Source: an uncultured Chryseobacterium sp. (GTDB lineage Bacteria > Bacteroidota > Bacteroidia > Flavobacteriales > Weeksellaceae). Taken from it: a stretch of DNA of 64,000 nucleotides. Positions 1-22,325 of this stretch are shown in pieces; position 1 is the first letter of the stretch; each line of letters opens with the position of its first letter. A program made the position numbers and the translations under genes. The notes beneath the pieces are model-generated. The model did no database searches. It saw nothing but the letters and a program-made list of their open reading frames with translations, and was not told the origin of the DNA. The stretch lies in assembly GCA_913778085.1 (NCBI GenBank), contig CAJYXJ010000014.1, forward strand, positions 124,001 to 188,000, read 5' to 3'.

Positions 1-449
1 AAATACTCGTGCTTTTTACCTCCAAACTGAATATGATAATATGGATGAATGTAAGAGAAGGCTAGCTCTCTCTCTTCTTTATCAAGGTGCCAAGTGCAAC
101 AATATTCTTTTTTTTGATTTTGTTCCGATTTAAAAAGGCTCACTTTCAAATCTAATGTATATTTAAAAAGTGGGTCTATTTTATCACTTAAAGTGTCCTT
201 TAACGCAAGTCTATTTTCCAAATCAATTTTACAAAAATGCATTTCATCTGGTTTTGCACCCGCAATTGCGCCTTTTAAATAAATACTAAAATTCTCTAAC
301 CGGTAATCAACCAAGTCTTTTGGGCTATTTTCTACTGTTTCAATTAAATTATTCAAACCAGTGAAATCACCATGGATATCATTTTCTGATATTATCTCTA
401 AAAGAAATTTCACGTCTTTCACATAATTTCTACGGCTCCATATTTCCAT
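1..449 (-). CDS. Unknown protein, third gene of GHKL-kinase/receiver operon (C-terminus beyond window)
   Basis: An open frame begins with ATG at 449 and runs off the left edge without a stop, giving about 149 residues. It starts three bases after the stop of the receiver gene, so it is almost certainly translationally linked to it. The visible protein has no signal peptide and no membrane segment. The first half is mixed charged helix. The second half contains two adjacent cysteines followed by Thr-Trp-His-Leu-Asp, then a conserved-looking SYIHPYYHIQFGGKKHEY stretch rich in His, Tyr and Gly, which could be a catalytic or ligand-binding loop. I do not recognise the family. Its position as the last gene of a signalling operon suggests it is the effector or output. 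Codon use is AT-rich, like the two genes upstream. Confidence 0.75.
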   Translation of the reverse strand, partial: MEIWSRRNYVKDVKFLLEIISENDIHGDFTGLNNLIETVENSPKDLVDYRLENFSIYLKGAIAGAKPDEMHFCKIDLENRLALKDTLSDKIDPLFKYTLDLKVSLFKSEQNQKKEYCCTWHLDKEERELAFSYIHPYYHIQFGGKKHEY

Positions 450-452
450 ATA

Positions 453-1505
453 TTATAAATATTTGCGCATTTCTTTTCTATCTAAATCACTTATAATTTT
501 ACTATATATATCAATATCGTCTAAGTAACCATCTATGGAAATGTAGTCTTTATCCTGCCAAGGTTTAAAATCTTCTTCTAATAATTCTATTCCATCAAAA
601 GGATCTAATGGAAGTTTTGTGTGTTTACAAATAGTCCAATAATTACTACTCAAGTTCTTATCGCTAGAAGTTACAACATTCAAATCTAAACCTGTTTTTT
701 CATTTATTTTTTTTACTCGTTCTTCAGCATTAAAATGTCTTAGTGAATATTTTTCATCAATTTTTAACATCCACCAATTATCAATTTTTGACATCCACCA
801 TCGGTTATATACTTCTGAAAATACACCTTTATACTTACAATCAGATATTTCCTCTATCAGTTTTACCCAGTTATTTGATTCTTTACTAACTCCAAGTCTG
901 GCAGATAAAATATCTTCTCCGATTAGTAAACCTGAACATCGGATTACATGCTCAAAGATAAACCTACTATATTCATAAACTGATTGATTACTATCATTTA
1001 AATAAATAAATAGTTTTGAATGAATTAAATTTTCTTCTATTTCTAATATTTTCGGTAAATCAAATTTTACTTCTAATATCTTTCTATAAGCTTTTACAAA
1101 TGCAATACATTTATTAATAAATTTCTGTGTATATTTTTTTGTTGCATTATCTTTCGTGATAGCATAATCAAAAAGGTCATGGCTTGTATAGTCTTTTCTA
1201 TAAGAATTAACAATGTTATCCTTATTAGACATTAATACAATAGGTCTTTCTTTGAGACCTTCAACAGCGGTCAATGATCTTAAAGTAGAGGCTATCGACG
1301 GAGCATTGCAATATTTTAGATTAGATCCTTCTGTTAAAATATAGTCTAGTAATACTAAATCTGGATTTACTGTTTTTATATCATTTATAATCAAATCAAT
1401 GTTATCAGAAGGAGGAAGAGACGTTATATTAAAATTTTCTCTTTCAAAAGTGAGATTTCTAGTTTCTGCTTCTAAATCTTCTATATATAATATTTTATAA
1501 GCCAT
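453..1505 (-). CDS. Response-regulator receiver protein with unknown C-terminal domain
   Basis: The 350-residue protein begins with a receiver fold: an early acidic pair in ILYIEDLEAE, the predicted phosphoacceptor Asp54 in DLVLLDYIL, a Ser after beta-4 (VLMSNKDN) and a Lys after beta-5 (YAITKDN). From about residue 150 to the end there is a helical, charged region with no DNA-binding motif I can identify, so the output is probably not transcription. Its start overlaps the end of the kinase-like gene (stop at 1495), which is strong evidence of translational coupling and a functional pair. The expected job is to receive phosphate from the adjacent double-GHKL protein. The C-terminal domain is unassigned. 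Confidence 0.8.
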   Translation of the reverse strand: MAYKILYIEDLEAETRNLTFERENFNITSLPPSDNIDLIINDIKTVNPDLVLLDYILTEGSNLKYCNAPSIASTLRSLTAVEGLKERPIVLMSNKDNIVNSYRKDYTSHDLFDYAITKDNATKKYTQKFINKCIAFVKAYRKILEVKFDLPKILEIEENLIHSKLFIYLNDSNQSVYEYSRFIFEHVIRCSGLLIGEDILSARLGVSKESNNWVKLIEEISDCKYKGVFSEVYNRWWMSKIDNWWMLKIDEKYSLRHFNAEERVKKINEKTGLDLNVVTSSDKNLSSNYWTICKHTKLPLDPFDGIELLEEDFKPWQDKDYISIDGYLDDIDIYSKIISDLDRKEMRKYL

Positions 1506-3798
1506 ATTTATCTAAATCTTTATCTGTAGCTGCGGGTACTTCGATACATATTGTAGTTGAATACCCATATTTTGGGTTATCTACAAATATTTTACCTCGA
1601 TAACTACTTAATATATCTTTTACTATTTTTAATCCTAGTCCTGTTCCAGTTATCTCATTTTTTGAATCTAAATCATCTAAAGTATTTGGGGACGATGTTG
1701 TGAAAAATTCTTCAAAGATACGATCTTTAATTTCTTCACTAATACCATCACCTGTATCAGAAAATCTAACAATTAGTTTATTTTCATTTTTACCACATTC
1801 AATATTGATTACTCCAATATTATTACTCCTTTTTATTGCCTTTTTTGAATTTGTAAATAAATTAAATAATATACTAGACCATTCCGATGGATGCATAGGG
1901 CAAGAGAATAAATAGTTCCCTACAATTTCCGGTTCTTCTAGTTTTATATCATTTTTAATTAAATCATTTTCAATTGTTTTCCAAAAAGTATTTATAGCTT
2001 TTTTTAAATCAATTGGTTTTAAGCTCCTGACAACATTTTGAGATATGACAGCATCAAAATAAGAAGTATAAGTATTAAATGATTCAATATTAGACTGTAG
2101 TAATGTTAACCTATTTAGTAGTATCTGATCATTATTTAGTTTTTCTATCAAAAAGCTAACATTTAAATCCATATTTAAAATATAATCTTTTACCTCATGT
2201 AAAAATAACCCGATTGTTAAACCTACACTACTTAACACCCGAAGCATTGATCTCTCTTTTAAAAGTTGATCTTTTTCTTCTTCTTGGGCTATGCGTAAAG
2301 CTTCAATTTCTTTTTTTACTTGGTCAATTTTTCTCTTTCTTCGCTTTTTTACCTCTATACTCCCTGATTCTTTTTCTAATTCTCTATCTAATTCTTCTAA
2401 TGTAAAAGCAATATTTTTTATTCTTACTTCAACAGTTTCATAAATTTTATTATTCACTGTTTGCCCCGAAACAATTTTAACATTTCTAACTTGCGCAATT
2501 TTTATTACGGCCGTCATTATTGTTCTATAGATAAAATTTCGTAATTGAATTAAAGCTTCATTTTCAACTAGTCCTTCTCTACTTGAGGTTTCATTAAAGT
2601 CATTATTTTCATCAATTAATTCAACAAAACCAAAAAAATTTAAATTTGAATGAACAGGTAGTATAGAACGTCGCTTAGTTGATTCATCTAATCCTACCCA
2701 ATCATTGTATGGCTCTCCATATGGCAATACTCTAAATCCATTTCTATAAAGTCGAATCCCTCCTTGAGTTCTTGCTAGCTTTCTAATACTAGTTTCTTGC
2801 ATCTTAGGAACCAAGTTCGAGTTATATATAAAGTAATAGGCTCTAAATTTAACATTTTTTAATTTAGAAAAAGGAACATCATCATTATCAGGATCACTAC
2901 TAATGTTTCCTATTTCGATTAAATTTAATTTCTTACTTTCTAATGAAAAAAGCCCATTTCCATTATTATCAACTTCTCCTTCGATTACAGCTGTAGCATG
3001 ATTATAAACCATAGTCTTTTCATCTGCAATATTTAATTGTCTTCCATTAATAATTTTTGAAAAATTGACTTTAAATCCTGGATCAATTGTATCGTCATCA
3101 TTTTCTTCTATTTCCGATAAAGGAAAAGGTTGTAATATATCTCCTACATAATTATATATTCTTTTTATTGATGCCTCAGACCATTTATCTTTTAAAAGTT
3201 CTATTTTGAGAATTGTTCCGGATTCTCTTGCCTTACTTATAGAATGAATTTTATTACTAACTGATAATAAATCAATATCATTAGAATAATCACTCCAATT
3301 TATTACAACAACCAAGGAATGGTTACTATTAGCTGTTTGTGTCGTTATAGTTAATTTTTCGCCTAACCTTTGAACGGCAAATCTACCAATTCCTTTTTGT
3401 CCTGCTCTTTTTCGCCTGTAAATATCAGATAATGGATTATGAATTTTTGCTGTTGATGAGATTCTCATAAAACCATTTATTAATTGATCTCTAGTCATTC
3501 CTGTACCATTATCTTCAATATATAATGTTCCACCAATACTATCTGAATTTTCAAATCTTATATTAACTTTCGTTGCATCTGCATCATAAGCATTTTTAAC
3601 TAATTCAGAAACTGCTGTTTCCTGTCTTGCTACTAGTTCACTGCCAAGTCTATCAATCACACCAGCATCAACACTAAAGCGAATATTATCATTATCAAAA
3701 GCTGCTAATTTCGTAGATAATTCTAAAATTTTCCCATAATTATTTGGTTCTTTTTTTAAAATTATTTCTAACTCTTCTCTTACTGATGCTTCGTCCAT
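1495..3798 (-). CDS. Double-GHKL ATPase: MutL/Hsp90-like N-terminus fused to histidine-kinase C-terminus
   Basis: The 767-residue cytosolic protein carries two separate GHKL ATP-binding domains. The first is MutL/Hsp90/MORC-like: ELVKNAYDADA near residue 66, DNGTGM near 97 and GQKGIGRFAV near 134. A long middle region leads into a charged coiled coil at about 465-510 rich in Lys and Glu. Next comes a histidine-kinase dimerisation-like helix with LFLHEVKDY near 528 (candidate phosphoryl His), then a kinase ATPase domain with an Asn box (LFNLFTNSKKA, about 655), DTGDGIS and GTGLGLKIVKDIL (about 725). No membrane or PAS segments are present, so the signal must be sensed inside the cell. It is the first gene of an operon with a receiver protein and an unknown protein. 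Such MutL-like/two-component fusions have been linked to genome-conflict islands; that role is inference here. Confidence 0.82.
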   Translation of the reverse strand: MDEASVREELEIILKKEPNNYGKILELSTKLAAFDNDNIRFSVDAGVIDRLGSELVARQETAVSELVKNAYDADATKVNIRFENSDSIGGTLYIEDNGTGMTRDQLINGFMRISSTAKIHNPLSDIYRRKRAGQKGIGRFAVQRLGEKLTITTQTANSNHSLVVVINWSDYSNDIDLLSVSNKIHSISKARESGTILKIELLKDKWSEASIKRIYNYVGDILQPFPLSEIEENDDDTIDPGFKVNFSKIINGRQLNIADEKTMVYNHATAVIEGEVDNNGNGLFSLESKKLNLIEIGNISSDPDNDDVPFSKLKNVKFRAYYFIYNSNLVPKMQETSIRKLARTQGGIRLYRNGFRVLPYGEPYNDWVGLDESTKRRSILPVHSNLNFFGFVELIDENNDFNETSSREGLVENEALIQLRNFIYRTIMTAVIKIAQVRNVKIVSGQTVNNKIYETVEVRIKNIAFTLEELDRELEKESGSIEVKKRRKRKIDQVKKEIEALRIAQEEEKDQLLKERSMLRVLSSVGLTIGLFLHEVKDYILNMDLNVSFLIEKLNNDQILLNRLTLLQSNIESFNTYTSYFDAVISQNVVRSLKPIDLKKAINTFWKTIENDLIKNDIKLEEPEIVGNYLFSCPMHPSEWSSILFNLFTNSKKAIKRSNNIGVINIECGKNENKLIVRFSDTGDGISEEIKDRIFEEFFTTSSPNTLDDLDSKNEITGTGLGLKIVKDILSSYRGKIFVDNPKYGYSTTICIEVPAATDKDLDKYGL

Positions 3799-4311: not shown

Positions 4312-6894
4312 ATGCAAAAAAACAATATCCCAAAATCTCAAGCCCTTTACATCGATGGTAAAGATAGGACCGATGAAATAGAAAGCTATACTTTCGAAGG
4401 GAACAAATGTTTGGTGATCTATAAAAACAATGGGAAGACGTATGCTTATCATCAGAAGAAAGTAAAAATCGTAAAGTCGGCCTTACAGAGTGTGGAGTCA
4501 GAGTCGGTTTTCAGTTATCTGAAGCAGATTGCGGAGGCGGTCGGGCTTACAACAGAGGAAGGCACTAATATCCTGGCTGATCACTACGACAAAATCCCTT
4601 TTATCCCGGAACATTCCGTTCTTTCGCACTACCTTAACCGGAAACAACCGGAAAAAGATCCGCACGCCTCTCCTATCGGGCTTTTTCCTTTCGGTTTTAA
4701 CCTGAGCCAGAAGAAAGGCGTGAATGAAGCATTCTCCCATCCCCTGAGCATCATCGAAGGCCCTCCGGGAACCGGGAAAACCCAGACCATCCTCAATATC
4801 ATTGCCAATGCGGTAATGAATAGTCAAAGTGTCGCGGTGGTTTCGAGCAATAATGCGGCTACCAAAAATGTTTTTGATAAGCTGGAGCGCAACGGCCTCT
4901 CTTTTATAGCCGCTCTTCTGGGAAACTCTGAAAAGAAGAAAGAATTCCTTGAGTCCCAGGCTGAGATCCCGGATCTGTCCGGCTGGCAGTTAACGGCAGA
5001 AGAAGCACACTCCCTTCAGGAGTCCAACACCCTGCTCTTTTCGCAACTTTCGGAAAAGCTTGAGCAACAAAACGAGTTGGCTCTGCTGAAGCGGCACATC
5101 GAAAATGTAGAAACCGAATACCGGCATTTCACCTCCTCCATAGCGGTACCGGCAGATCTGCGTTTTAAAAAGAACATCTCTTCCGGACAGCTTCTTTCCC
5201 TGTGGATCACGATTGAAGCGTATGAGGCGTCCGGCAAGAAATTCAACTGGTGGCGGAAACTGACCTTTCCTTTTCTCTATGGCGTACGGGACAAAACCTT
5301 TTATGAGCGGCCTTACCGGGAGTTGATCAGATCGGTTCAGGCTACCTATTATACCGTGAAAATTTCGGAGCTTACACTGAGGAAAGCGCAGCTGGAATCA
5401 GCATTGCAGGATTTTTCGTTCGGGGAGAAAATGAAAACCTATACGGAAATCTCGATGCAGCTCTTTAAACATGCTTTACATCAGAAATACCAGGAAAAAA
5501 AGCGTCCGCAATATACTGCCGGGGATCTGCATCTGAACTCAGAAGAATTCATCAGGGACTACCCGGTGATCCTCAGCACCGCCTACTCTCTCCGAAAAAG
5601 CCTTGACAAAAATACAGTTTATGATTTCGTCATCATCGACGAATGTTCGCAGGTCGATCTGGCCACGGGCGTGCTGGCCTTATCCTGTGCCAAAAAAGTG
5701 GTGATCGTAGGAGACCTGAAGCAGCTGCCCAACGTGGTGAATCCGGATACCGCCCTGAAAACAGATCTTATTTTCCAGTGCTACCAGCTTCCTGAAGCCT
5801 ATCGGTATTCCAGTCACAGCCTGCTTTCGTCGGTAACCGGATTATTTCCCGGGATCCCTAAAACGCTTTTACGGGAACATTACCGGTGCCATCCCCAAAT
5901 CATTGATTTCTGCAACCGGAAATTCTACCATAACCAACTGATTATTCTGTCCGAAGCCCAAACCGGCCGGGAGCCCCTGCTCGTTTACAGGACCGTCGCC
6001 GGAAATCATGCGCGGGACCGGATGAACCAGCGGCAGATCGATGTGATCGTAGAAGAGATTATCCCGCAGCAGAAACTGGAAACCGCAGACCTGGGCATCG
6101 TTACGCCCTACCGGAACCAGACCTCAGCCTTACAGCAGGCCTTCCAGGGAACATCCGTGAAAGCGGATACGGTAGATCAATTCCAGGGAAGGGAAAACGA
6201 TGTGATCATCCTTTCCACTGTGGATAATGAAATATCAGGCTTTACCGACCATCCCAACCGTCTGAATGTTGCCGTTTCAAGGGCCAAAGACCAACTGATA
6301 TTAGTGGTGAACGGGAATGAAAGTGAAAAAGACAACAACATCTCCGACCTGATCCGCTATATTGAATATCAGAATTTCACGGTTGTCCACAGTCAACTGC
6401 ATTCTATTTTCGATTACCTGTACAAAGGATATGAAGAGAAAAAGCAGGAGCTCTTATCCGGCCAGAAGCAAAAATCGGTATTCGACAGCGAGAACCTGAT
6501 GCATGTGCTGATCCGTGAAGTTCTGTCACAGAATGAATTTTCGAGGTATGATGCCGTCCTTCATCTTCCTCTTAGAAACCTAATCTCGGATTTTTCGAAG
6601 CTCAATGCCGAAGAAGAACAATATGCAAGGCATTATGCCACCCATCTGGACTTTGTCATTTATAACAAACTGGGTAAAAATCCGGTTCTGGCCATTGAAG
6701 TGGACGGCTACGAATATCACCGCAAAGGCAGCCGCCAAAACGAACGCGATGCCATGAAGAATAAGATCCTGGAAACCTACGGCCTTCCGCTGCTGCGGTT
6801 TTCGACGACGGGAAGCGGGGAAAGGGAGAAGCTGGTTGAGGCAGTTGTGAACAAAATTCCCGATTTTTTTCAGTTATTTTATTTCCTATCTTAA
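4312..6894 (+). CDS. Superfamily 1 DNA helicase with C-terminal DUF2726-type nuclease domain
   Basis: The 860-residue cytosolic protein has an SF1 helicase core: Walker A GPPGTGKT near residue 150, Walker B VIIDECSQ near 440, motif III-like VVIVGDLKQLPN, then HYRCHP, VDQFQGRENDVIILS and a LNVAVSRAKDQLILV box, as in UPF1/Dna2-like helicases. A long insertion between Walker A and B is helical. The last 120 residues contain LDFVIY, AIEVDGYEYH and a Lys/Arg-rich helix, matching DUF2726/Vsr-like PD-(D/E)XK nucleases (D, then ExD). It should unwind and cut nucleic acid. It is a single gene, in base composition like the rest of the chromosome and unlike the AT-rich operon to its left. A repair role or an anti-phage role are both possible. 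Confidence 0.85.
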   Translation: MQKNNIPKSQALYIDGKDRTDEIESYTFEGNKCLVIYKNNGKTYAYHQKKVKIVKSALQSVESESVFSYLKQIAEAVGLTTEEGTNILADHYDKIPFIPEHSVLSHYLNRKQPEKDPHASPIGLFPFGFNLSQKKGVNEAFSHPLSIIEGPPGTGKTQTILNIIANAVMNSQSVAVVSSNNAATKNVFDKLERNGLSFIAALLGNSEKKKEFLESQAEIPDLSGWQLTAEEAHSLQESNTLLFSQLSEKLEQQNELALLKRHIENVETEYRHFTSSIAVPADLRFKKNISSGQLLSLWITIEAYEASGKKFNWWRKLTFPFLYGVRDKTFYERPYRELIRSVQATYYTVKISELTLRKAQLESALQDFSFGEKMKTYTEISMQLFKHALHQKYQEKKRPQYTAGDLHLNSEEFIRDYPVILSTAYSLRKSLDKNTVYDFVIIDECSQVDLATGVLALSCAKKVVIVGDLKQLPNVVNPDTALKTDLIFQCYQLPEAYRYSSHSLLSSVTGLFPGIPKTLLREHYRCHPQIIDFCNRKFYHNQLIILSEAQTGREPLLVYRTVAGNHARDRMNQRQIDVIVEEIIPQQKLETADLGIVTPYRNQTSALQQAFQGTSVKADTVDQFQGRENDVIILSTVDNEISGFTDHPNRLNVAVSRAKDQLILVVNGNESEKDNNISDLIRYIEYQNFTVVHSQLHSIFDYLYKGYEEKKQELLSGQKQKSVFDSENLMHVLIREVLSQNEFSRYDAVLHLPLRNLISDFSKLNAEEEQYARHYATHLDFVIYNKLGKNPVLAIEVDGYEYHRKGSRQNERDAMKNKILETYGLPLLRFSTTGSGEREKLVEAVVNKIPDFFQLFYFLS

Positions 6895-8511: not shown

Positions 8512-11500
8512 TTATTTTTTTACCTTCCAAAAAATACTCATTCCTGCTGAAGAAGTACCTTGTAATTCAAAAGGTCGTTTCGAATTTCCTACGCCAGTCC
8601 ATCTACTTGTTGTATAGCACCATGGTCCACATTTTCCAGTTGCCGGGTTTATGGATGAAGATCTAAATACCGAGTTTAAGGACCAATTAGGATTTACTTT
8701 ATTATAATTCGTTTCAGCATTTCTAATGAAATTACCTAAAACATTTGACGTGATAGAAATATAGCTGTACTCTTTAAACTTATTATGATCCATTCCTTTT
8801 TTGAGGAAATCAATGCCATCCCATAGAACAGCCCCACCTGTTGGATCTTTACCTCCAGTTAAAACACTGATAACTGCAGATCTTGCACCATTTGCAGCAT
8901 CACTTCCATTTCCTGTTGACAAAGGAGTTGTTCTATCTGAAGATGAAGTTGTTGAATAATTACCATCAGTAAGCATCTGATATAAACCTTCATTTCCTTT
9001 ATAATTTACATCTTTATCGCCAACTGCATTATTTGCAACATGAGCAAGCATCAAGCTTTCCATTGGATTTCCAGAAGATTCAGCTTTAATGATATTTGAC
9101 ATAATTTGAAACTGTGAATGTGTGGTATTTAGTTCTTTAGCATTACTAAAGCTACCATCTGAATTTCTATTGTCAGCAACGTATACCTTATTATCATTTT
9201 TACCATCACTTCCTAGATATTTTCCCAATTTATTATAATAATCCCCGACAGGTTCCATACCATCTGGATCGATAAATATCACGGGATTATTGAAAGCATA
9301 ACTATAAGGGCTATGCATTGTCATTTTTTCCGCCAGCGGATCCACCACGCCCCATCTACCAATATCCGGCATATAGAACCGGGCTCCGTAATCATACATT
9401 CCCGTCTCCTGCAATTCCTTTCCGTTGTATTTATAGTTCTGATATCCTCCTAACGAACTCTTTAACCCTCCAATGTGATTTGATCCGAAGGCATAATAAT
9501 TATTCGTATCGGTTATTTGCAGTTCACCATTACTATCTTTCTTATAACTTACCCTTGCATTTCCCAGATGATCTCTATACTGGTAAATATAAAGGTTTTC
9601 TGTGAAACTGTAAAAACCTTCTGCCGTCGGCACAAAACTTAAAATCCAAGTAGAAGATGGTGTTAATGGCGGTTTTAATCCTCCGCCTGCTGGTAATAGT
9701 ACATCTTTCTGCTGAAATGCCTGCTCTTCATAAGCTACGCTGGTACGACACCAGGTACATTGTGTAGTTTCTGAAGAACTATACTGAAAGCCATCCAAGT
9801 AATCTGTCATATTTGTCGTTGTAGAATATCCTCTAGGACCAACATTTTTATAAGTTTTGCGCAGTTTAACTCCATCAGCGCGATACAAATGACTTAAAGT
9901 AACATTAGATACAGCTCCCGAGTTGTTTTCAATGATCTCGTAAGTAGTAGGTAAATTCAGATAATTATACCCTATCCAATCTATCCCTTTGTCCTTCATA
10001 TTGATCATACTTCCGTTCAGGTCATAGTCCATTACATTATTACCACCTTCATAACCTGTACTGTTAGGCATGTTCTCAATCACTTTATCCAGGCGGTTGC
10101 CGGTGTATTGATATACCAGGTCATCAATCAAAGTTGGCGTAGGAGAAAATACCTGTGGAGCAAATCTTTTTAAGGTATTGATATTTCCGTTCAAATCATA
10201 GGTTAGGTATTCATTAAAACTTCCGCTTACTCCCGTGCTCGGTTCCCTGTAATAAGAACTTGCGAGCCTGTTCAGCTTATCATAGTCATAATTATACCTT
10301 TTCATCAGGTTTTCTGAACCGTTATTCCAGTCTATCTCTGTAATATTGCCGTTGAATCTCCCTGCAGTAATATTTGAGGATATCGGATTATTATACCTAA
10401 GTTCATACCCAAACAGCTTCCCATTAAGGTTTGCCGGATCATTGATCTTGGTCATCCAGCCACGGATATTGTAAGAATAATCTACCGTTTGAAGACCGTT
10501 TCCTAATATCGTTCCACCCACTTTTTTATTACTCAGCTGGGAAAGCTCATTATAAGTATTCTGAGCCAGGATTTCCACAAAATTATTATCTACCTTATGC
10601 GTATGGGTTAAGAGTCTATTTTGGCTGTCATAAGTAAAATTCTCAGTAATAATTCTTTCTGTATCGGTATCCAATCTTTTATGATGAGTGATACTTTGCT
10701 GTACTATCCCGGCAAAATCAAGCATAGTTTCCACATTGGTATATCCGCCTAAGTGGTTAATGGAATGGGTTCTGACAGCTCTTCCCTTTTTATCGTACCA
10801 AGTATAGCTTTTCGTCCAGTTGTCATCTTCAATGTTTTTAACATAAGAAGCCACCGGTAAGCTTTTGGTGCTGACGGGAGAATTCTGGGTATCCTGAGGT
10901 AAAACATCCTGTCCTAAAATCTGGCTCGGTATTGAAGGAGTGCCTGGTGGATACGTATCATAGTAGTTGATACTCAAAACCTGGAGAATAGCAGTAGTAG
11001 GATACGTATTATTTCCATAATAAATATCCATTCCGTTTTTGGTAAAGCCTATGGCACTTGTCCTTTCCTCTGTCAGAGAAGCTGCTGTTACAGAATGAAA
11101 GTTTACAGCATCCTGAATATCCTTTCTTATATAAGTATTTCCTATTCCTGCTATAGCGGTATAAATAACACGTGATAATTTATCGTAACGGGTAAGCAGC
11201 CAGTTTCCCGAAGGTCTCATATTTGCATCCTGAGTCATAAATATACGGTCGGCTTTGTCATACACCATATACTCCCAACCCTTTCCGGGAATTTTCTTTT
11301 CGACCAATCTGCCCCTGCTATCGTATTTATATTGATAGCAAAGATCACCAAGTACCGTATTGGGATCTGTTTCAATAGCCGCTTTTGGGGAGATGACAAA
11401 AGCCAGTTGGTTGTATTCGTTATACACATAATAGGTATCTGCCTTTTCCGTGTCACTGATCATTTTTCTTACCAGCAGAACCTGGCCTTCCCCGTTTTTA

Positions 11501-12138
11501 AACTCAATGGTTATATTCCCGTCTTCATCGGTTACCGTATTTTTATACAGCTGCGCCGTCCCGTAATTTGTGCTTTGGCTTAACTCAGAGTTAGTGGCAC
11601 CATCTACCCATGTGGTAACCGTGGTGTATTTTTTAACCGCATCACCGGTGGTATTGGCATCATACCCAAACTGTACCGGTTTATTATCCCAGGCTGCACC
11701 CACCTGCTTTTGTTGAAGAACCCGGTCAAGGGGTGAGCTTTCCAGAATCTTTTCTGAAAAAGGTTTTTCGTTCGTATATACTCCTGTAGGGTCACCTACA
11801 GGAAAATATCCGGAAGTTTGCTGGGTATAAATGCCCCCGCCATTGGTTCCCTGCTGGGGAACAGGAAGGTAATCCAAAACCTGTCTTCCGAATCCGTCGT
11901 ATACAATGGGCGTTACTATATCTTTTCCTTGCGGAGACGCTTTAACATTAACAATCTGCTTAGGCCTTCCAAGACCGTCAAAATACTGAACGGTCTCAAT
12001 CTGTTTCGCCGTAGAGCTGCTTGTGGTGGTAGGCTCAAGATAGGTTCTGCTCTGGACATAGTTCTCTATTGTACTAAGCTGTGCCTGAATCATTCCAGAT
12101 ATAAAGATTGCACCTATAGGTATTATTATTTTCTTCAT
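8512..12138 (-). CDS. RHS-repeat polymorphic toxin (DUF6443-type) with cell-wall-hydrolase-like tip
   Basis: The 1208-residue protein has a signal peptide (IGAIFISGMIQAQ), then an N-terminal DUF6443-type region with YFDGLGRPKQ, many YD/RHS repeats (YNYRGWMTKI-like and YDKLNRLASSYY-like) and the conserved RHS core end near residues 915-960 (RFYMPDIGRWGVVDPLAE, then NNPVIFIDPDG). Everything after that is a variable tip of about 240 residues. It contains IIKAESSGN near 1015 and later SGSDAANGARSAV-like spacing and GGKDPTGGAVLW, a pattern like SleB-type cell wall hydrolases with Glu as catalytic acid. The tip is more AT-rich than the core, as expected for exchangeable toxin ends. Third gene of a four-gene operon; the next gene is the likely immunity lipoprotein. 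Confidence 0.82.
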   Translation of the reverse strand: MKKIIIPIGAIFISGMIQAQLSTIENYVQSRTYLEPTTTSSSTAKQIETVQYFDGLGRPKQIVNVKASPQGKDIVTPIVYDGFGRQVLDYLPVPQQGTNGGGIYTQQTSGYFPVGDPTGVYTNEKPFSEKILESSPLDRVLQQKQVGAAWDNKPVQFGYDANTTGDAVKKYTTVTTWVDGATNSELSQSTNYGTAQLYKNTVTDEDGNITIEFKNGEGQVLLVRKMISDTEKADTYYVYNEYNQLAFVISPKAAIETDPNTVLGDLCYQYKYDSRGRLVEKKIPGKGWEYMVYDKADRIFMTQDANMRPSGNWLLTRYDKLSRVIYTAIAGIGNTYIRKDIQDAVNFHSVTAASLTEERTSAIGFTKNGMDIYYGNNTYPTTAILQVLSINYYDTYPPGTPSIPSQILGQDVLPQDTQNSPVSTKSLPVASYVKNIEDDNWTKSYTWYDKKGRAVRTHSINHLGGYTNVETMLDFAGIVQQSITHHKRLDTDTERIITENFTYDSQNRLLTHTHKVDNNFVEILAQNTYNELSQLSNKKVGGTILGNGLQTVDYSYNIRGWMTKINDPANLNGKLFGYELRYNNPISSNITAGRFNGNITEIDWNNGSENLMKRYNYDYDKLNRLASSYYREPSTGVSGSFNEYLTYDLNGNINTLKRFAPQVFSPTPTLIDDLVYQYTGNRLDKVIENMPNSTGYEGGNNVMDYDLNGSMINMKDKGIDWIGYNYLNLPTTYEIIENNSGAVSNVTLSHLYRADGVKLRKTYKNVGPRGYSTTTNMTDYLDGFQYSSSETTQCTWCRTSVAYEEQAFQQKDVLLPAGGGLKPPLTPSSTWILSFVPTAEGFYSFTENLYIYQYRDHLGNARVSYKKDSNGELQITDTNNYYAFGSNHIGGLKSSLGGYQNYKYNGKELQETGMYDYGARFYMPDIGRWGVVDPLAEKMTMHSPYSYAFNNPVIFIDPDGMEPVGDYYNKLGKYLGSDGKNDNKVYVADNRNSDGSFSNAKELNTTHSQFQIMSNIIKAESSGNPMESLMLAHVANNAVGDKDVNYKGNEGLYQMLTDGNYSTTSSSDRTTPLSTGNGSDAANGARSAVISVLTGGKDPTGGAVLWDGIDFLKKGMDHNKFKEYSYISITSNVLGNFIRNAETNYNKVNPNWSLNSVFRSSSINPATGKCGPWCYTTSRWTGVGNSKRPFELQGTSSAGMSIFWKVKK

Positions 12139-12146
12139 GTAATTAG

Positions 12147-15100
12147 TTATTTATCATATTCAACTGAGAATCCAACGGTAGAAGTTGGCGAAGGAGCACC
12201 ACTCAAAGCATTAACAACAACATATCCATCCTGAGTTATTGTAACCCGCCAGTTTCCACTGTTGATATAGCGTATGCTTGATGGCCGGCATGCAGAACCT
12301 ATATATCCAACTGAAACCCCGCCACTGGTGTAACTCATACTCGATGGTGGATTTGCGCTGTATGTAAGTATCATCGAGATATGATTGGGACCGGTCTGCT
12401 GTATGGAACTATAATTGACATTTGCATAGTAATTTGGTGTAAAATCACATGAAATAAAACCACATGATCCATTTGCATTGGCTTCAGCCTGACCATTAGT
12501 TGATGCATCATTCTGTGCCATTAATGTTGCGTCTTCTGGACTTATAATGGACATATAGGTATTGGCAGGTATGGTATATGTGTAAGCCTGACCAACCATC
12601 CAGTTAGGACAGTTATTTTTGTAAAAAATTTTCGTGTATTTTTCGTTATAATGTTTTATCGGAGCGTAATTATATTTATACTCTTTAATGATGTTATCAT
12701 CAATATCTAAAATTCGATCCAATCTATTCGCATTATCATATTTGTAACTTTCGGTAAACCCGGAAGATGAGATAATACTCTTGACTCCAACGAGCGGTTC
12801 ATGTATATAAGTTTCAATAAAAAAAGATTTTAGCTCCGGTTTATTTTTAAAGTCATTTAATTTATTTAGTAATTCTGATTCTGTTGATGTGTTAGATTTA
12901 TTAACTATTTCAAGTTGTAAGTAAGAATTGGGATTGATCGGATCCAAATTGAAGGCTTGCATTATCTGAGCATAAGTAGCTCCTTTAATCACGGCTATTG
13001 GAAGGGTCTGATGATATCCATAGATTATAGTAGTAGGTATACCGGACATAGGCGTTGATTGGATTAAATTTTGCCTGTCATCATACAAATCATTCGTGCT
13101 TACGGTATGAACAGTTGCATTCTCAAAATTTGTTTCGGTAAATAATGAGTTATTTTCACTAAGCCTTTTAGAAGACAGTAAATATTTTGAAATGCCGAAT
13201 TTTGTATATATATTTTCAACAAGAGAATATTTTCCTGAATGATTTTTGCTGATACTCAAAATCGGATAGTTAACATTCTCATCAATCATCTGTTTATAAG
13301 TCAGCATTTTTTTTCCTGGATTATCAAGATTGGTAAATGTACAATTAGAAGTATAGCAAATGCTCTTTTTTAAAAGATCTCCCGGATAAAAAGAAAAGGA
13401 TGTATTTGTTCTTCCATTATTAACTCTTATCGTTTTAACAGGATGAGGATGCCAATATAAATAGTCTTTATTGAACTCAAATCCTACAATATGTGAATTA
13501 TTTAAAATTATTCCGGAGGAAAAGTATTCAGTTGTTGTTTCGGATGAAAGCACATAAGGCAGAACAGATACATAGGAGTATCGTAACTTTTTTTCACCTG
13601 TAGAATTGTTAATTGAACCTCCGATATAAACATAATAATTCTTGTCAAATATTTTACATAAGGTACAATTATCATCAGGATATTGAAGTATAGCATCTGA
13701 TAATCCTTTTAAAAAATTGGTGTATTTATAATCCGTAACAGAGATTAAGGAGTTGTTTTGATTATAAACACTCTTTCTTAACAACTTACCTCTTTCATAA
13801 GCCTTGGAGATATCTATTTCTTGATTATTAGGAATATTATAATTCTTAACACTTACCGTGTCAGGGTTAGTGATGTAATCTGAAAATTTATAAATAATCT
13901 TACCTTTTCCAGTATCTTCTGTTACTTCACTATAATTTATAACTGTGTTTGAATAACGGTTGTATTTTTTATCAGCTAAATCAATAAGAGATATATTTTC
14001 ACGTATACCACTGGAACTTCCGTAATCTAAATTATATGAATAGTTAGTAGTTTCAGGCTGGGCATCTTTTGATGTACGGAAAAGTTGTTTCTTAATTCGT
14101 GCTCCTCCTGTATCATTAAGCGGGTTTTGAACCAAATGTAAAAACGCCCCTCTGTAATCAAATGTACTTGTATTAGGTTCATATTCAAATTCGATCTCTC
14201 CGGTTGTGGGTAATATCACCTTTTTTAATAAACCTAAATCTCCATTTTGGTCCATATAGCCGATCGCATTTGTTCCTGCTGAATAATTAGGGAAATTATC
14301 TGTTTTTTGATAATTAAATATATATTTTTCACTATTATTCTTCTTAACTGAAGTTAAAAATGTTCTTTTATTAGTGCTTCCAAAATCTTTAATTTCAAAT
14401 TCATATTTATCAATTATTTTATTATTAAGATCTTTCAAATTAATTTCTTTCAAATAATAATTTGAAATTTCTAATGGGTTTGAGGTAATATTGTAAGTAA
14501 AGAATAAAGAACCTATATCATCTATGCTTATATTATCTATTGCAGCAATTTTTGTATAGTATTGTTCTTTACTAAGGGTCAGCAAATCTCCAATACTAGT
14601 ACTATTTGAAGATCTTGCATTAGCTATATAAAGATTGTCAGCAAGTAATGATGCTTTTGTTGGAAATTCATTATTAAATACTACATTTTTTGGATTTTTC
14701 TGTCCCTCTTTCACAAAATCAGCTAAAACCTGTTGAGATTGAGGAATATAATTAACAATGATTTGTCTTCCATCAGATAATTCTATTTTTGATAAATTCC
14801 ATCCTATAATATAATTATTCCGCGTTTTTGCAGTATACTGGTAACTATTATTTACCATACCTCCTGAATTATCGACATAGTCTTCAGTATATTCACTTTG
14901 AGCATAATTAATATCTAGCGTATTGTATTGACCACCAAAATAAAATTTATTACCCATTTCATCTCTGATCAGAATCTGTGAGAACCCTATCTCTTTTTTG
15001 AGATATTGACAACCTAAATTCTCTATTGAAACCGTTAATTTTGCCGTCTCACAATTTATAATAGGTTTCTTTTCATTATCAATAATAAAATATCCTTTAT

Positions 15101-15596
15101 AGCCAAAAAAATCAAAATAAAATTTTTCTGTAATAATGATTTTATCTATCGCATTAGTTATATTAGTTAATAAATCTTTTTTCTTAAACCCAGGCTTTAA
15201 ACTAGAATCAGTAGGTACGGGGCAATCTTGTTTATTTTCATTAGATAGTCCACCTGTAGCAGAATTTCTTAATGATAATAAATAATTTGATCCACTAAGA
15301 TTTTGTGTAGTTTCTCGACTTATTTTACCAATCGGATTAATACTCCAATTTAAACCAGACATACCAGGCTGCAATCCCGGTTTGAATCCATTTGAATCAT
15401 AATTTAGTTGAGATTTTAAGTTAATATTGCCAATTTTGATATCATATAATGGTACAAAATAACCTATTGATCCTGAATTTAAATTATGACTTACATTTAT
15501 ACCTTTAACCAAAGAATAATGATCAGCCGGTTTATCAATTTGGCAAAATATCTTGCAGGTTAAAAATATTGTTAGACAAAGTATTATTTTCTTCAT
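12147..15596 (-). CDS. Large secreted RHS/YD-like protein with DUF5977 domain
   Basis: The 1149-residue protein has a signal peptide (IILCLTIFLTCKIFC, cleavage near residue 19). The N-terminal part resembles the start of SpvB/RHS shells (GSIGYFVPLYDIKIGNINL, then GLNWSINPIGKISRET). Sparse YD-like repeats occur throughout, ending with GFTESYKYDNANRLDRI. Near residues 995-1045 is a DUF5977-like module with a Cys-Pro-Asn-Trp start, YTYTIPANTYMSIIS and GQAEANANGSCGF. The gene sits 8 bp upstream of the RHS toxin gene in the same orientation. This pairing recurs in flavobacteria; the protein probably forms part of the toxin shell or delivery platform. It does not carry an obvious T9SS sorting domain itself. 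Confidence 0.75.
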   Translation of the reverse strand: MKKIILCLTIFLTCKIFCQIDKPADHYSLVKGINVSHNLNSGSIGYFVPLYDIKIGNINLKSQLNYDSNGFKPGLQPGMSGLNWSINPIGKISRETTQNLSGSNYLLSLRNSATGGLSNENKQDCPVPTDSSLKPGFKKKDLLTNITNAIDKIIITEKFYFDFFGYKGYFIIDNEKKPIINCETAKLTVSIENLGCQYLKKEIGFSQILIRDEMGNKFYFGGQYNTLDINYAQSEYTEDYVDNSGGMVNNSYQYTAKTRNNYIIGWNLSKIELSDGRQIIVNYIPQSQQVLADFVKEGQKNPKNVVFNNEFPTKASLLADNLYIANARSSNSTSIGDLLTLSKEQYYTKIAAIDNISIDDIGSLFFTYNITSNPLEISNYYLKEINLKDLNNKIIDKYEFEIKDFGSTNKRTFLTSVKKNNSEKYIFNYQKTDNFPNYSAGTNAIGYMDQNGDLGLLKKVILPTTGEIEFEYEPNTSTFDYRGAFLHLVQNPLNDTGGARIKKQLFRTSKDAQPETTNYSYNLDYGSSSGIRENISLIDLADKKYNRYSNTVINYSEVTEDTGKGKIIYKFSDYITNPDTVSVKNYNIPNNQEIDISKAYERGKLLRKSVYNQNNSLISVTDYKYTNFLKGLSDAILQYPDDNCTLCKIFDKNYYVYIGGSINNSTGEKKLRYSYVSVLPYVLSSETTTEYFSSGIILNNSHIVGFEFNKDYLYWHPHPVKTIRVNNGRTNTSFSFYPGDLLKKSICYTSNCTFTNLDNPGKKMLTYKQMIDENVNYPILSISKNHSGKYSLVENIYTKFGISKYLLSSKRLSENNSLFTETNFENATVHTVSTNDLYDDRQNLIQSTPMSGIPTTIIYGYHQTLPIAVIKGATYAQIMQAFNLDPINPNSYLQLEIVNKSNTSTESELLNKLNDFKNKPELKSFFIETYIHEPLVGVKSIISSSGFTESYKYDNANRLDRILDIDDNIIKEYKYNYAPIKHYNEKYTKIFYKNNCPNWMVGQAYTYTIPANTYMSIISPEDATLMAQNDASTNGQAEANANGSCGFISCDFTPNYYANVNYSSIQQTGPNHISMILTYSANPPSSMSYTSGGVSVGYIGSACRPSSIRYINSGNWRVTITQDGYVVVNALSGAPSPTSTVGFSVEYDK

Positions 15597-15606
15597 TATA
15601 AATTTC

Positions 15607-17148
15607 TTACTTTTTAATTAGTTTGACACTCGCCTTTTTCCCATTATCCGTTTTCACCGACACCAGGTAAGCCCCCTGGACCAGTGGCTGCGTGTTAATC
15701 TTGGTTATTTTATTTTTTGTTTTGATGCTCTGAAGTTGCCTTCCGCCCATATCGTACATTACGATTTCGGCTTCTTTGAAATCAAAGCCGACTTCAACAT
15801 AAGTGTAGTCCGACACTGGATTCGGATAGATCTTAATATCCTGCTTCTCGATCAGCTGGTCAATCTGCTTATCGCCAAGCTTTACGATCTTCCAGTTCTC
15901 TTTACCGAGTTCCTCGGCGCTGGTTCCCGCAAGGATGATTGAGCCGTCGCGGTTCAGCTTTAGATCCGAAAGACGTTCCTCCCTTTTACTGGATTCTCCT
16001 TTAACATGCTTTCTCCATTGCTCATTGCCGTTCTGATCCAAGTACAGCATCCAGAACTTTTCATCATCCGTTTCGATCCTTCCCTCTGCCTGCGTGTAGC
16101 CACCCAGTAAAATTCCTTTAGTTGATTTATCATCCGAAGCATGCAGTACGCTCATACCCATTAATACATCCCGGTTTTTGAAATTGTAAGATTTCTGCCA
16201 GATCTCTTCGCCTCTTTCGTTTACGGAGATTAACCAAAGGTCTGTACCTTCTTCAAGACCTACCGTTTTATTCCCCGATCTTTCAGACCTGGATTCCCCA
16301 CCAATGATGTATCCGGTAGATGTCATTGCCAATGTTCTTAAATGGTCATCGCCTTTGCCTCCGAAATTCTTTTCCCATTCCACTTTGCCCTCTTTCGAAA
16401 GCTTAACCATATAGAAATCGCCTTCACCATAGTTCTCCGTCTTTTTTGAACCTCCCGCACTGCTTCTGGAATAAATGCCCAATAAAGCTCCGCCGTCAAT
16501 GGTCGGAATCATTTTTTCCACTTCGTCCAGTCCTTTTCCACCTAAAACAAGCTGCGAAGTTTCCTTTCCGTTTTTATCGAGTTTTACTACCAGCACATCT
16601 TTAGAGCCATACCCCTTTTCAGCATTCTGAATATTCCCGGCAATGTAAAATCCAAAATCCGTCGTCTGGATCACCGCTCTCGCCTCTTCATCTGAAGCAC
16701 TGCCAATGGTTTTCTGCCACAATTCGTCGCCAAATTCGTTTAGGCGGATCAGCCAAAAATCGCTGCCTCCTTTCGATTCTTCCTTCTTATCAAGGCCTTT
16801 TCCGCTGTAAGAAGTTCCGGCCAATAAAAAGCCGCCCTCCTGCGTATTGACCGTAGCGCTAAGCATGTCATGATTCTTTCCGGAAAAGTATTTTTCCCAG
16901 ACCTGTTCCCCCATTTGGTTTAATTTGACCAGGTGATAGTTGTAACCGCTATTCTGCTTATTGTCTGAAGAAATATTATGGGACTGGATACTGCTTCCCG
17001 AGATCAGGTATTGTCCGTCGATGGTTGTGGTAACCTGGCTTAAGAAATCCTGCGTTGATGACTTAATGTCTTTCTGCCACACTACTTCCTGGGCAGAAAC
17101 GCCCAGAGATATGCACAAAAACAGTGCACTCATGTAGAGTTTTCTCAT
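15607..17148 (-). CDS. T9SS type A sorting-domain protein with beta-propeller-like repeats
   Basis: The 513-residue protein has a signal peptide (LYMSALFLCISLGVSAQ), about seven repeats built around GGxDFWLIRLNxxGDELWQK-like blades, and a C-terminal T9SS domain at about 440-513 that starts with IYPNPVSDYTYVEV and ends in GAYLVSVKTDNGKKA and KLIKK. It should be exported by Sec, carried across the outer membrane by T9SS and held at the cell surface. It is the first gene of the RHS operon, 10 bp before the DUF5977 protein, so it may anchor or guide the toxin complex. It is less AT-rich than the two genes that follow. A good TAnnTTTG promoter lies just upstream. Confidence 0.87.
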   Translation of the reverse strand: MRKLYMSALFLCISLGVSAQEVVWQKDIKSSTQDFLSQVTTTIDGQYLISGSSIQSHNISSDNKQNSGYNYHLVKLNQMGEQVWEKYFSGKNHDMLSATVNTQEGGFLLAGTSYSGKGLDKKEESKGGSDFWLIRLNEFGDELWQKTIGSASDEEARAVIQTTDFGFYIAGNIQNAEKGYGSKDVLVVKLDKNGKETSQLVLGGKGLDEVEKMIPTIDGGALLGIYSRSSAGGSKKTENYGEGDFYMVKLSKEGKVEWEKNFGGKGDDHLRTLAMTSTGYIIGGESRSERSGNKTVGLEEGTDLWLISVNERGEEIWQKSYNFKNRDVLMGMSVLHASDDKSTKGILLGGYTQAEGRIETDDEKFWMLYLDQNGNEQWRKHVKGESSKREERLSDLKLNRDGSIILAGTSAEELGKENWKIVKLGDKQIDQLIEKQDIKIYPNPVSDYTYVEVGFDFKEAEIVMYDMGGRQLQSIKTKNKITKINTQPLVQGAYLVSVKTDNGKKASVKLIKK

Positions 17149-20203: not shown

Positions 20204-22309
20204 CTATCCCATTTCCGGAAATTCTAAGGCTGTTTTATGATCATCTTTGATAACCAGGAAGGCATTAAATTTCTTCCCGCTTTTAGTTTTCATGTTTTTA
20301 ATCAGCGGCGTTTTCCCTGTCTTTATTAATACTGTGATATGATTGATGCTGAGCTGAATTCCGCATAGGGTTCTGAATAATATCCAACAGCATTGGGCAT
20401 CAGGGCATTTTACGATTTTATCTTTGATCATGAGATTTTGCTGCCGGCATTTCGGGCATCTTAATTCCGGGATATCTTCCTGGGGAATCTTGAGTAATAG
20501 CAGTTCATTGGTGATTTCTGTTGTGTAGCCTTGAATGTCACTGATGAATTGATTTTTGGTAAGTTCATTGTTTTCAATTTTATGCAGTGCTGTTTCCCAC
20601 TCTGCGGTCATTTCTACATTGGCTATTTTTTTGTCTTTGATGAGCTCGTAGACCTGCAGGCCTTTTGCAGTCGGAACCAATGTTTTGTTTTTTCTGATTA
20701 TGTAGTTTCTGCCGAGTAGGGTTTCAATGATGGAGGCCCGGGTGGCGGGAGTACCGATACCTATATTCTGAAGCATTTGCTGCTGATCTTTATTTTCGAT
20801 CTGCCGGCCTGCATTTTCCATTGCTGACAAAAGGTCCGCTTCTGTATAGAGTTTGGGAGGTACGGTGGTCTTCTCCCGCAGTTCAGCATTTGAAATTTTA
20901 ACCTCATCACCGATTTTCAATTCAGGAAGATCAATAAGCATTTCCGGATGGTTTGCGTTATGTTCCGTTGTATTGGAATCTGTACTGTCTGTTAGGATTC
21001 CCCTCACGGCCCGCCAGCCTTTGATGATTATTTTTGAGGCTCTGATATTAAATGGATAATGATGGACTTTGAGTGTTATGTGCGTGATCTCTTTTGAGCA
21101 ATGTTCTGACAAGGATTCCAGTAACCGGTACACTATCATCTGATAAATACTTTTCTCAACGGCGGTCAGAGCCGATGGGATTTTGGTAGTGGGCAACAAT
21201 CCGTGGTGATCGGTAACTTTTAGGTCATTGACCATGCGTTTATTAAAATTGCCAAATTTCAATGTTGCAATAGATGCCTTGAACTGATCGGTGCTATTAA
21301 GGGTTCTCACCAATTCAGGAATCTCTGCCCAGAGATCTTCAGGAATATATTTGCTGCCTGTTCGTGGATAGGTGATAAACTTTTTCTCATACAGGCTTTG
21401 TGCGGTCTGTAAAACCTCATCGGCTGAAAGCCCGAGTTTCCGGTTGGCTTCTTTCTGAAGCTCTGTCAGATCGAAAAGCAGCGGTGATGATTCTTTAACC
21501 GTGTCGACGGATACCTCCTCAATAGTAGCTTTACCCTCCCGTTCTATGGCTTTCAAAATTTGAACGGCCTGCTTTTCATCCTCCCAATATGCCTCTGACA
21601 GGCTTGTGAAATCTACATACTCTTTGCGGTGCTTGAGCTGAATCTGCCAGTATTTCTTTTTTTCGAAATCGTTATGGTCCCGAAATCTTTTGCAGATTAA
21701 AGCAAGCGTCGGAGTCTGGACCCTGCCTAAGGAGTAAACCTCATTGCCGGCTGCAATAGTTAATGCTTGGCTGGCATTGATTCCCACGAGCCAATCGGCT
21801 TCGCTTCTGGCTTTTGCAGCAGCGTACAGGCTGTCAAAGTCTGAACCTGGCCGGAGCTTTTTAAAGCCGTCGGTGATGGCTTTTTCAGTGAGTGAACTGA
21901 TCCAGAGCCGCTCGAATGGCTTGGTGCATTCCAGATAATCATAGATGTACCGGAAAATCAATTCCCCTTCTCTTCCGGCATCGGTTGCAACAATAATGCG
22001 GTTGCATTGATTGAATATGTTGTTAATCGTCTTCAGTTGTTTTAAAGCAGATGGATCCGGTTTATGGGTTTTCGATTGTTTGATTTTTCTTGGCGTCAGC
22101 TTAAATGGATTGGGAAAGATCGGTAAAGAGGCTTTATCAAAGCCTCTAATCCCATAATCTTCCGGCATTCCCAATGCCACCAGGTGCCCCAGTGCCCAGG
22201 TTACACAATAGCCGTTTCCTGTAAAGTATCCTTCTTTTTTTTCATCTGCATTGAGTATCAGTGCAATTTCCCTTGCTACATTTGGTTTTTCTGCAATTAT
22301 GGCCTTCAT
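20204..22309 (-). CDS. topB: DNA topoisomerase III, conjugative-transposon type
   Basis: The 701-residue protein is a type IA topoisomerase: N-terminal Toprim domain (AIIAEKPNVAREIA, then VATDAGREGELIF near residue 105), GRVQTPTLALI near 190 and the catalytic Tyr in KKFITYPRTGSKYIPE near 315. The C-terminus has a zinc-binding-like CPKCRQQN pattern. It relaxes and decatenates single-stranded DNA. It ends a three-gene minus-strand module with a DUF3945 protein and a small helix-turn-helix gene, the arrangement seen in Bacteroidetes conjugative transposons (CTnDOT-like). No transfer genes or integrase accompany it here, so the element is a remnant or this module was captured. Confidence 0.92.
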   Translation of the reverse strand: MKAIIAEKPNVAREIALILNADEKKEGYFTGNGYCVTWALGHLVALGMPEDYGIRGFDKASLPIFPNPFKLTPRKIKQSKTHKPDPSALKQLKTINNIFNQCNRIIVATDAGREGELIFRYIYDYLECTKPFERLWISSLTEKAITDGFKKLRPGSDFDSLYAAAKARSEADWLVGINASQALTIAAGNEVYSLGRVQTPTLALICKRFRDHNDFEKKKYWQIQLKHRKEYVDFTSLSEAYWEDEKQAVQILKAIEREGKATIEEVSVDTVKESSPLLFDLTELQKEANRKLGLSADEVLQTAQSLYEKKFITYPRTGSKYIPEDLWAEIPELVRTLNSTDQFKASIATLKFGNFNKRMVNDLKVTDHHGLLPTTKIPSALTAVEKSIYQMIVYRLLESLSEHCSKEITHITLKVHHYPFNIRASKIIIKGWRAVRGILTDSTDSNTTEHNANHPEMLIDLPELKIGDEVKISNAELREKTTVPPKLYTEADLLSAMENAGRQIENKDQQQMLQNIGIGTPATRASIIETLLGRNYIIRKNKTLVPTAKGLQVYELIKDKKIANVEMTAEWETALHKIENNELTKNQFISDIQGYTTEITNELLLLKIPQEDIPELRCPKCRQQNLMIKDKIVKCPDAQCCWILFRTLCGIQLSINHITVLIKTGKTPLIKNMKTKSGKKFNAFLVIKDDHKTALEFPEMG

Positions 22310-22325
22310 ATCTTTTAATTTTTAA

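Follow-up and report, generated by a model that had tools for sequence, protein, structure and literature searches.

The window analysed here, a stretch of 64,000 nucleotides from an uncultured Chryseobacterium sp. (G000:C14:124001-188000, contig CAJYXJ010000014.1), begins with three minus-strand genes, which encode a double-GHKL sensor histidine kinase (HK, 767 amino acids), a response regulator (RR, 350 amino acids) and a third protein, here called C (236 amino acids in full). The edge of the window cuts C, whose complete open reading frame (L002:11739-12449) was read from the contig past that edge. An Eco57I-type adenine methyltransferase (MTase) gene of 634 amino acids starts 2 bases after C on the same strand (Eco57I, E-value 1.8e-30; MTase_II, 9e-108), and it is followed, again on that strand, by the genes of a GmrSD_N/DUF262 protein (348 amino acids) and a RiboL-PSP-type HEPN protein (228 amino acids). 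Therefore, the truncated gene against which the original prediction had the operon end is an intact one, and what had been described as a three-gene operon comprises at least four genes, with HK-RR-C-MTase as the core unit. On the other hand, the claim that these genes are AT-rich unlike their neighbours was confirmed: the guanine-plus-cytosine (GC) content of the island from the HEPN gene to HK is 27%, against 52% in the SusC gene on one flank and 47% in the helicase gene on the other.

Table 1. Features of the HK, RR and C genes, numbered from the first nucleotide of the window
Feature	Positions	Strand	Basis
HK, 767-amino-acid double-GHKL sensor kinase (MutL/paraMORC-like ATPase, middle region, H-box, kinase ATPase)	1495..3798	-	HATPase_c_3, HATPase_c
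HK amino acids 60-187, N-terminal HATPase_c_3 (MutL-like)	3238..3621	-	Pfam; conserved residues
HK His534 codon, predicted phospho-acceptor (H-E-[VI])	2197..2199	-	invariance
HK amino acids 642-756, C-terminal kinase HATPase_c	1531..1875	-	Pfam; conserved residues
RR, 350-amino-acid response regulator, receiver and helical C-terminal domain without named family	453..1505	-	model, structural alignment
RR Asp54 codon, predicted phosphorylation site	1344..1346	-	invariance
C, first 149 of 236 amino acids; gene continues to G000:C14:123739 beyond the window	1..449	-	open reading frame
C motif H121-x-D123	81..89	-	invariance
C motif H135-P-x-Y-H139	33..47	-	invariance

Conserved residues and predicted folds

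HK contains both HATPase_c_3 (1.7e-24) and HATPase_c (8e-25) according to Pfam, and it matches MutL and histidine kinase structures by sequence. Its N-terminal ATPase resembles the BbrUII/HgiDII restriction enzymes, with a score of 79.9 bits that lies under the model cut-off of 550. Residues were counted in those of the 49 aligned rows that were long enough (46 for HK, 48 for RR and 45 for C). The first ATPase site (N69, D96, G98, G100, G136, G138) is invariant in 46/46 rows, as is the H534-E535 pair, His534 having also been invariant in 37/37 rows of an earlier set. The second ATPase site (N650, D681, G683, G685, G718, G720, G722) is kept in 45 of the 46 rows, being missing only in the shortened copy of L024. 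In RR, the receiver fold was demonstrated by a predicted model and structural alignment; D10, D54 and K118 are invariant in 48/48 rows, and position 93 is Ser in 44 rows and Thr in 4. The C-terminal half of RR is helical and also conserved, with R203, W237, C293 and W316 present in all 48 rows. No Pfam family matched RR with an E-value of 1 or lower, so no DNA-binding domain was found in it, the C-terminal fold not having been searched alone; the non-DNA-binding C-terminus of the original prediction is accordingly only putative. Judged by sequence, HK and RR would constitute a two-component pair, since the phospho-acceptor His, the kinase ATPase and the acidic pair, Asp and Lys of the receiver are all in place.

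MORC, MutL and BbrUII-like ATPases are not known to need phosphotransfer, which counts in favour of a reading in which the kinase plan was inherited and the phosphorelay is inoperative. HK would then be an ATPase machine dependent on DNA, comparable to other restriction ATPases of the GHKL type, and would load RR and C or move them. Additionally, passages of a study on VcSduA report that its GHKL part is required, together with the nuclease, for phage defence (PMC12137116). However, H534, E535, the second ATPase site and the RR residues D10, D54 and K118 are kept across very divergent copies, an invariance that is hard to explain without phosphotransfer, and we consider this reading very improbable.

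The predicted model of C is mixed alpha/beta (predicted local distance difference test score, 82) and matches no solved fold. C scored above cut-off with no Pfam, NCBIfam or PADLOC family, Pfam found no DNA-binding domain in it, and family scans named no recognisable restriction nuclease in HK, RR or C. H121, D123, H135, P136, Y138, H139, P160, R161 and P166 are invariant in 45/45 rows, and H164 is kept in 43 of them. The His/Tyr/Gly-rich motif of the original prediction corresponds to H135-P-x-Y-H139, and the next conserved stretch after it, P160-R161-x-x-H164, falls outside the window. The first 110 residues of C, its N-terminal half, form the fastest-changing segment across loci; L044 and L049, for example, are 40% identical in this segment, compared with identities of 83-94% for HK and 92-95% for MTase.

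Linkage and distribution

Relatives found by searches seeded with RR occur in 7 of 198 related genomes (the genome studied here included), in at least 37 loci of a genome collection, in 3 viral contigs and in 1 plasmid, the value of 37 being a lower bound because that scan uses short patterns. Together with the window and further stretches, these make up 49 distinct loci, in all of which HK, RR and C, whole or in pieces, follow one another in this order on one strand. This count includes the remnants in five broken loci (L023, L024, L034, L046, L051), as well as the C of L028, which is cut by a contig end (19 bits). Since RR had seeded most of the loci, a second search was made with C alone: 11 of 297 genomes of the family were positive, and HK and RR adjoined C in 11/11. 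The original prediction, which held that the three genes belong together, would have been contradicted by genes not kept together or found only in housekeeping contexts; both possibilities were checked, and neither contradicted it.

Among the first 40 loci, no protein cluster besides HK, RR, C and MTase occurs in more than 5, indicating that the flanks vary; L015 and L050 are the same place. The system is rare: a search of 395 genomes from the phylum gave 8 matches, of which two were full-length (the present genome and G506), while the other six, short matches with weak scores (19-29 bits), were disregarded. The hosts belong to Bacteroidota and Pseudomonadota, with one planctomycete bin, and the Pseudomonadales and planctomycete copies are sisters in the tree described below; the operon has crossed phyla. 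The HK-RR-C proteins of L044 and L045 are identical although their metagenome bins are labelled as Chryseobacterium gleum and as Chitinophaga pinensis, which may reflect a recent transfer or a binning error, and these two loci are hence not independent. AbiE-type toxin-antitoxin pairs lie directly upstream of HK in L021-L023, L035, L037 and L038, as DUF6088/AbiEii and DUF6577/AbiEii in L021 and L035 and as the same clusters in L022, L023, L037 and L038.

Change of the modification partner

An MTase of the same Eco57I-type family lies downstream of C in 40 of the 49 loci and is inverted in one more (L024), and in L028 the contig ends there. In four other loci (L050, L078, L079, L080), SspB-SspC-SspD is found directly upstream of HK, with an Ssp-HK junction that ranges from a 22-base overlap to a 6-base gap. 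PADLOC was run on the L015 genes, on SspA and SspB of L078 and on SspA of L079, and the remaining Ssp calls are by similarity to the L015 proteins. In L015/L050, it named SspC (1320 bits), SspD (4.5e-91) and the end of SspB (1.9e-24); in L078, SspB (2.2e-106) with SspA nearby; and L079 has SspA nearby (also DndA-like), plus PbeA. Among the neighbouring genes that were scanned, a subset of the total, none was named as SspE. In L079:11166-17844, a PbeA-like helicase and an AAA/SMC-like ATPase were observed near SspA, beside SspBCD-HK-RR-C, and genes of sizes similar to these two are present in L080:2111-8871. In three phage-like contigs (L053, L054, L093), the MTase is upstream of HK; it is barely matched by the present MTase profile (13-22 bits), and Pfam classes it as Eco57I-like in two of them, L053 and L054.

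A tree was built from 42 of the 48 loci then held, with L023, L024, L028, L034, L046 and L051 left out and L093 added to the collection later. In this tree, the partner state needs two changes, the minimum for three states. A single branch sets the Ssp group apart (99), and another does the same for the upstream-MTase pair (100), the latter grouping being less sure because it joins two long branches. A constant HK-RR-C beside a DNA mark of changing chemistry represents the strongest argument for function.

This linkage also bears on a rival explanation, which we regard as unlikely, namely that the two-component pair merely regulates the modification genes, with C as a co-regulator. Two-component systems usually control transcription, and RR and C could form a promoter complex; moreover, signalling control of restriction-modification (R-M) systems was offered, in the parts of that paper considered here, for a sister system (PMC8011034). 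However, Pfam finds no DNA-binding domain in either RR or C, the modification genes linked to the pair differ in their chemistry and lie upstream or downstream, and the MutL-like ATPase, standing where a small-molecule sensor would otherwise be, fits a DNA-sensing role. Furthermore, in the loci first compared, no separate restriction enzyme recurs beside HK-RR-C.

Selection and mosaic evolution

The operon genes are under purifying selection. In eight chosen locus pairs, the ratio of nonsynonymous to synonymous substitution rates (dN/dS) was 0.03-0.22 wherever computable, that is, in 22 of 32 gene comparisons, many of them with dS above 1. In pairs such as L018/L074, L021/L022 and L039/L043, identity reaches 79-92% in HK (by segment) and 69-87% in MTase; between these genes, RR shows 44-53% and C 26-63%. 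Covariation was analysed in 34 of the 48 loci, without those excluded from the tree, L040, L045 and six loci with other partners, by a permutation test that ignores relatedness. MTase similarity tracks the N-terminal ATPase once the kinase half is controlled for (partial rho 0.47), but it does not track the kinase half after control for the ATPase (0.03). C similarity tracks the kinase half (partial rho 0.69), and RR and C similarity covary (partial rho 0.63). This pattern would suit a sensor tied to the DNA mark and an exchangeable output cassette.

The covariation of RR with C can also be read as support for the RR C-terminal domain being the executioner, with C as an adaptor, specificity or self-protection protein. 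In fact, this domain is confidently modelled and carries the four invariant residues given above. C, however, holds the invariant His and Asp residues typical of catalytic or metal sites, and such a division of roles appears quite unlikely.

Proposed mechanism

Three genes found beside different DNA-marking enzymes look like a defence switch that discriminates self from foreign DNA. The MTase gene and its swap with phosphorothioation genes, which the original prediction missed because they lie beyond the window edge, make it likely that HK-RR-C is the restriction half of a DNA-modification system. The best explanation, to which we give moderate confidence, is that HK-RR-C represents the restriction, or output, half of a modification-dependent defence system that works by phosphorelay. 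The linkage, the partner change, the intact catalytic residues, the receiver fold and the purifying selection were all computed and support it; DNA sensing by HK, phosphotransfer, an effector role of C and an anti-phage function are inferred. In such a system, the modification half would mark self DNA, by adenine methylation through the linked MTase here and by backbone phosphorothioation through SspBCD in other loci. The N-terminal MutL/paraMORC-like ATPase of HK would engage DNA and respond to unmarked target sites, whereupon the C-terminal kinase domain would autophosphorylate His534 and the phosphate would pass to Asp54 of RR. Phosphorylated RR, via its helical C-terminal domain, might then activate C or act with it, and this RR/C output would act against the foreign DNA or the infected cell by destroying or blocking it. 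As for the mobile or defence island, phosphorelay and non-transcriptional effector originally predicted, the linkage, the varying flanks, the spread across phyla and the invariant phosphorelay residues speak in their favour, whereas the non-transcriptional role of C or RR is still conjecture.

Several points weigh against this explanation. The evidence is wholly computational, and C has neither a nuclease motif nor a known fold, which makes the killing step a guess. The presence of PbeA, another phosphorothioate-linked gene, beside the L079 operon suggests that HK-RR-C may not be the sole restriction part there, and the DUF262 and HEPN genes in the genome of the window could be effectors. Additionally, C similarity also correlates with the N-terminal ATPase (0.35), and a crossover replacing the middle of the operon gives equal ATPase-MTase covariation.

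A more specific form of the restriction-half explanation, put forward only tentatively, is that recognition and destruction reside in separate proteins joined by the phosphorelay. The ATPase would read a missing mark, methyl or phosphorothioate, the phosphorylated receiver would license C as a new His/Asp-based effector of unmatched fold, and the RR-C cassette would be exchanged independently of sensor and modifier.

Neighbouring genes

The DUF262 and HEPN families were not seen in the other loci first compared, and for this reason the two genes look like separate defence cargo. They lie at L002:7979-9718 (window -4021 to -2282), the DUF262/GmrSD_N protein being matched by the PADLOC models NsnA (2.5e-71) and PD-T4-2_A (9e-55). 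Further out, on the opposite strand, a 150-amino-acid protein weakly resembles R-M control proteins (2.4e-4). Beside the AT-rich island, on the plus strand, window positions 4312-6894 encode an SF1 helicase with a DUF2726 nuclease-like end (AAA_11, AAA_12; GC 0.47), which has part-length similarity to MkoA/MkoC and Hhe. On the minus strand, positions 8512-17148 hold the genes of two very large proteins (DUF6443, DUF5977) and a Por_Secre_tail protein, likely a secreted-protein cluster, and positions 20204-23795 those of a TopB-kind topoisomerase and a DUF3945/DUF4099 protein, a combination typical of Bacteroidota conjugative elements.

Comparison with known systems

Restriction is usually viewed as sensing and cutting within one complex. 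If the proposed mechanism is true, a phosphorelay between the two steps would allow the response to be amplified, delayed or reset. In Detocs, a two-component kinase and regulator likewise have a non-transcriptional immune output, with the difference that the effector is fused to the regulator; to our knowledge, Detocs has neither a modification gene nor a MutL-like ATPase. PADLOC assigned HK, RR and the portion of C inside the window to no Detocs model, the content of its library for Detocs being unchecked.

The closest likeness is to the HEF_HK/Response_reg_2 (PF19191/PF19192) system, a two-component-like system near R-M genes that was predicted in 2021 (Bellieny-Rabelo et al., PMC8011034, considered here in part), whose authors speculate that its signalling controls R-M systems. 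Both systems have a kinase (soluble in the sister system, presumably also here) with an N-terminal HATPase_c_3, an H-box and a C-terminal HATPase_c, an adjoining receiver gene and R-M genes nearby. In fact, the present HK profile matches the HKs adjoining five PF19192 genes in relatives of the window with 80-121 bits (5 of 6 PF19192 matches were examined, with their C5 MTase and Vsr genes identified by visual inspection), and the kinship of the kinases is clear. However, the RRs of those five loci have 534-598 amino acids, are unmatched by the present RR profile and come without C, while the present HK and RR match neither PF19191 nor PF19192; HEF_HK was not among the Pfam families of HK at E up to 1, and a search of 148 genomes found no Response_reg_2 in the genome studied here. 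The partners differ as well, since Eco57I-type MTase or SspBCD accompanies the present system, whereas C5 cytosine MTases, Vsr and HNH near the sister system are stressed in the portions of PMC8011034 considered; no C5 MTase is present among the genes scanned of the window's operon. The main text of that paper has no mention of phosphorothio-, PAPS, Eco57I, phage or defense. Therefore, the present system resembles the HEF_HK/Response_reg_2 system in its working, with no membership claimed, and its predicted kind is already known, the unmatched Pfam models and the added C being what is new.

In Ssp systems (SspABCD with SspE or SspFGH), SspE is described as a phosphorothioate-dependent effector in the abstract of PMC13251355. 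In the four relatives with Ssp genes, HK-RR-C follows SspBCD, at the place expected of a restriction effector; the operon of the window, by contrast, has an MTase and lacks Ssp genes, and no SspBCD was found in the 19.5 kb around it. That one three-gene module occurs next to adenine methylation in some loci and next to phosphorothioation in others gives a concrete reason to think that the HK ATPase domain reads self marks. In VcSduA, a Shedu protein with an N-terminal GHKL ATPase, the ATPase is thought to gate the defence nuclease, and both are needed against phage; this constitutes an experimental precedent for phage defence in which a GHKL ATPase works together with a nuclease. However, as described in passages of that study (PMC12137116), which mention no modification gene, VcSduA is a single protein with a PD-(D/E)xK nuclease and without kinase core or receiver.

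MORC and paraMORC are GHKL ATPases found in operons with DNA methylases of R-M systems (Iyer et al. 2008, PMC2292703, passages of section 4), and the operon described here likewise combines a MutL-like GHKL ATPase with a DNA methylase. They are defined by such an ATPase with an S5-type domain after it; of this arrangement, HATPase_c_3 and similarity to MutL were seen in HK. Unlike the present operon, they stand mostly beside SFII helicases and REase-fold nucleases, and the passages in question describe no histidine-kinase fusion or receiver for them. With HK-RR-C, the part that MORC-like ATPases play in restriction islands, to which that study drew attention in 2008, becomes directly testable.

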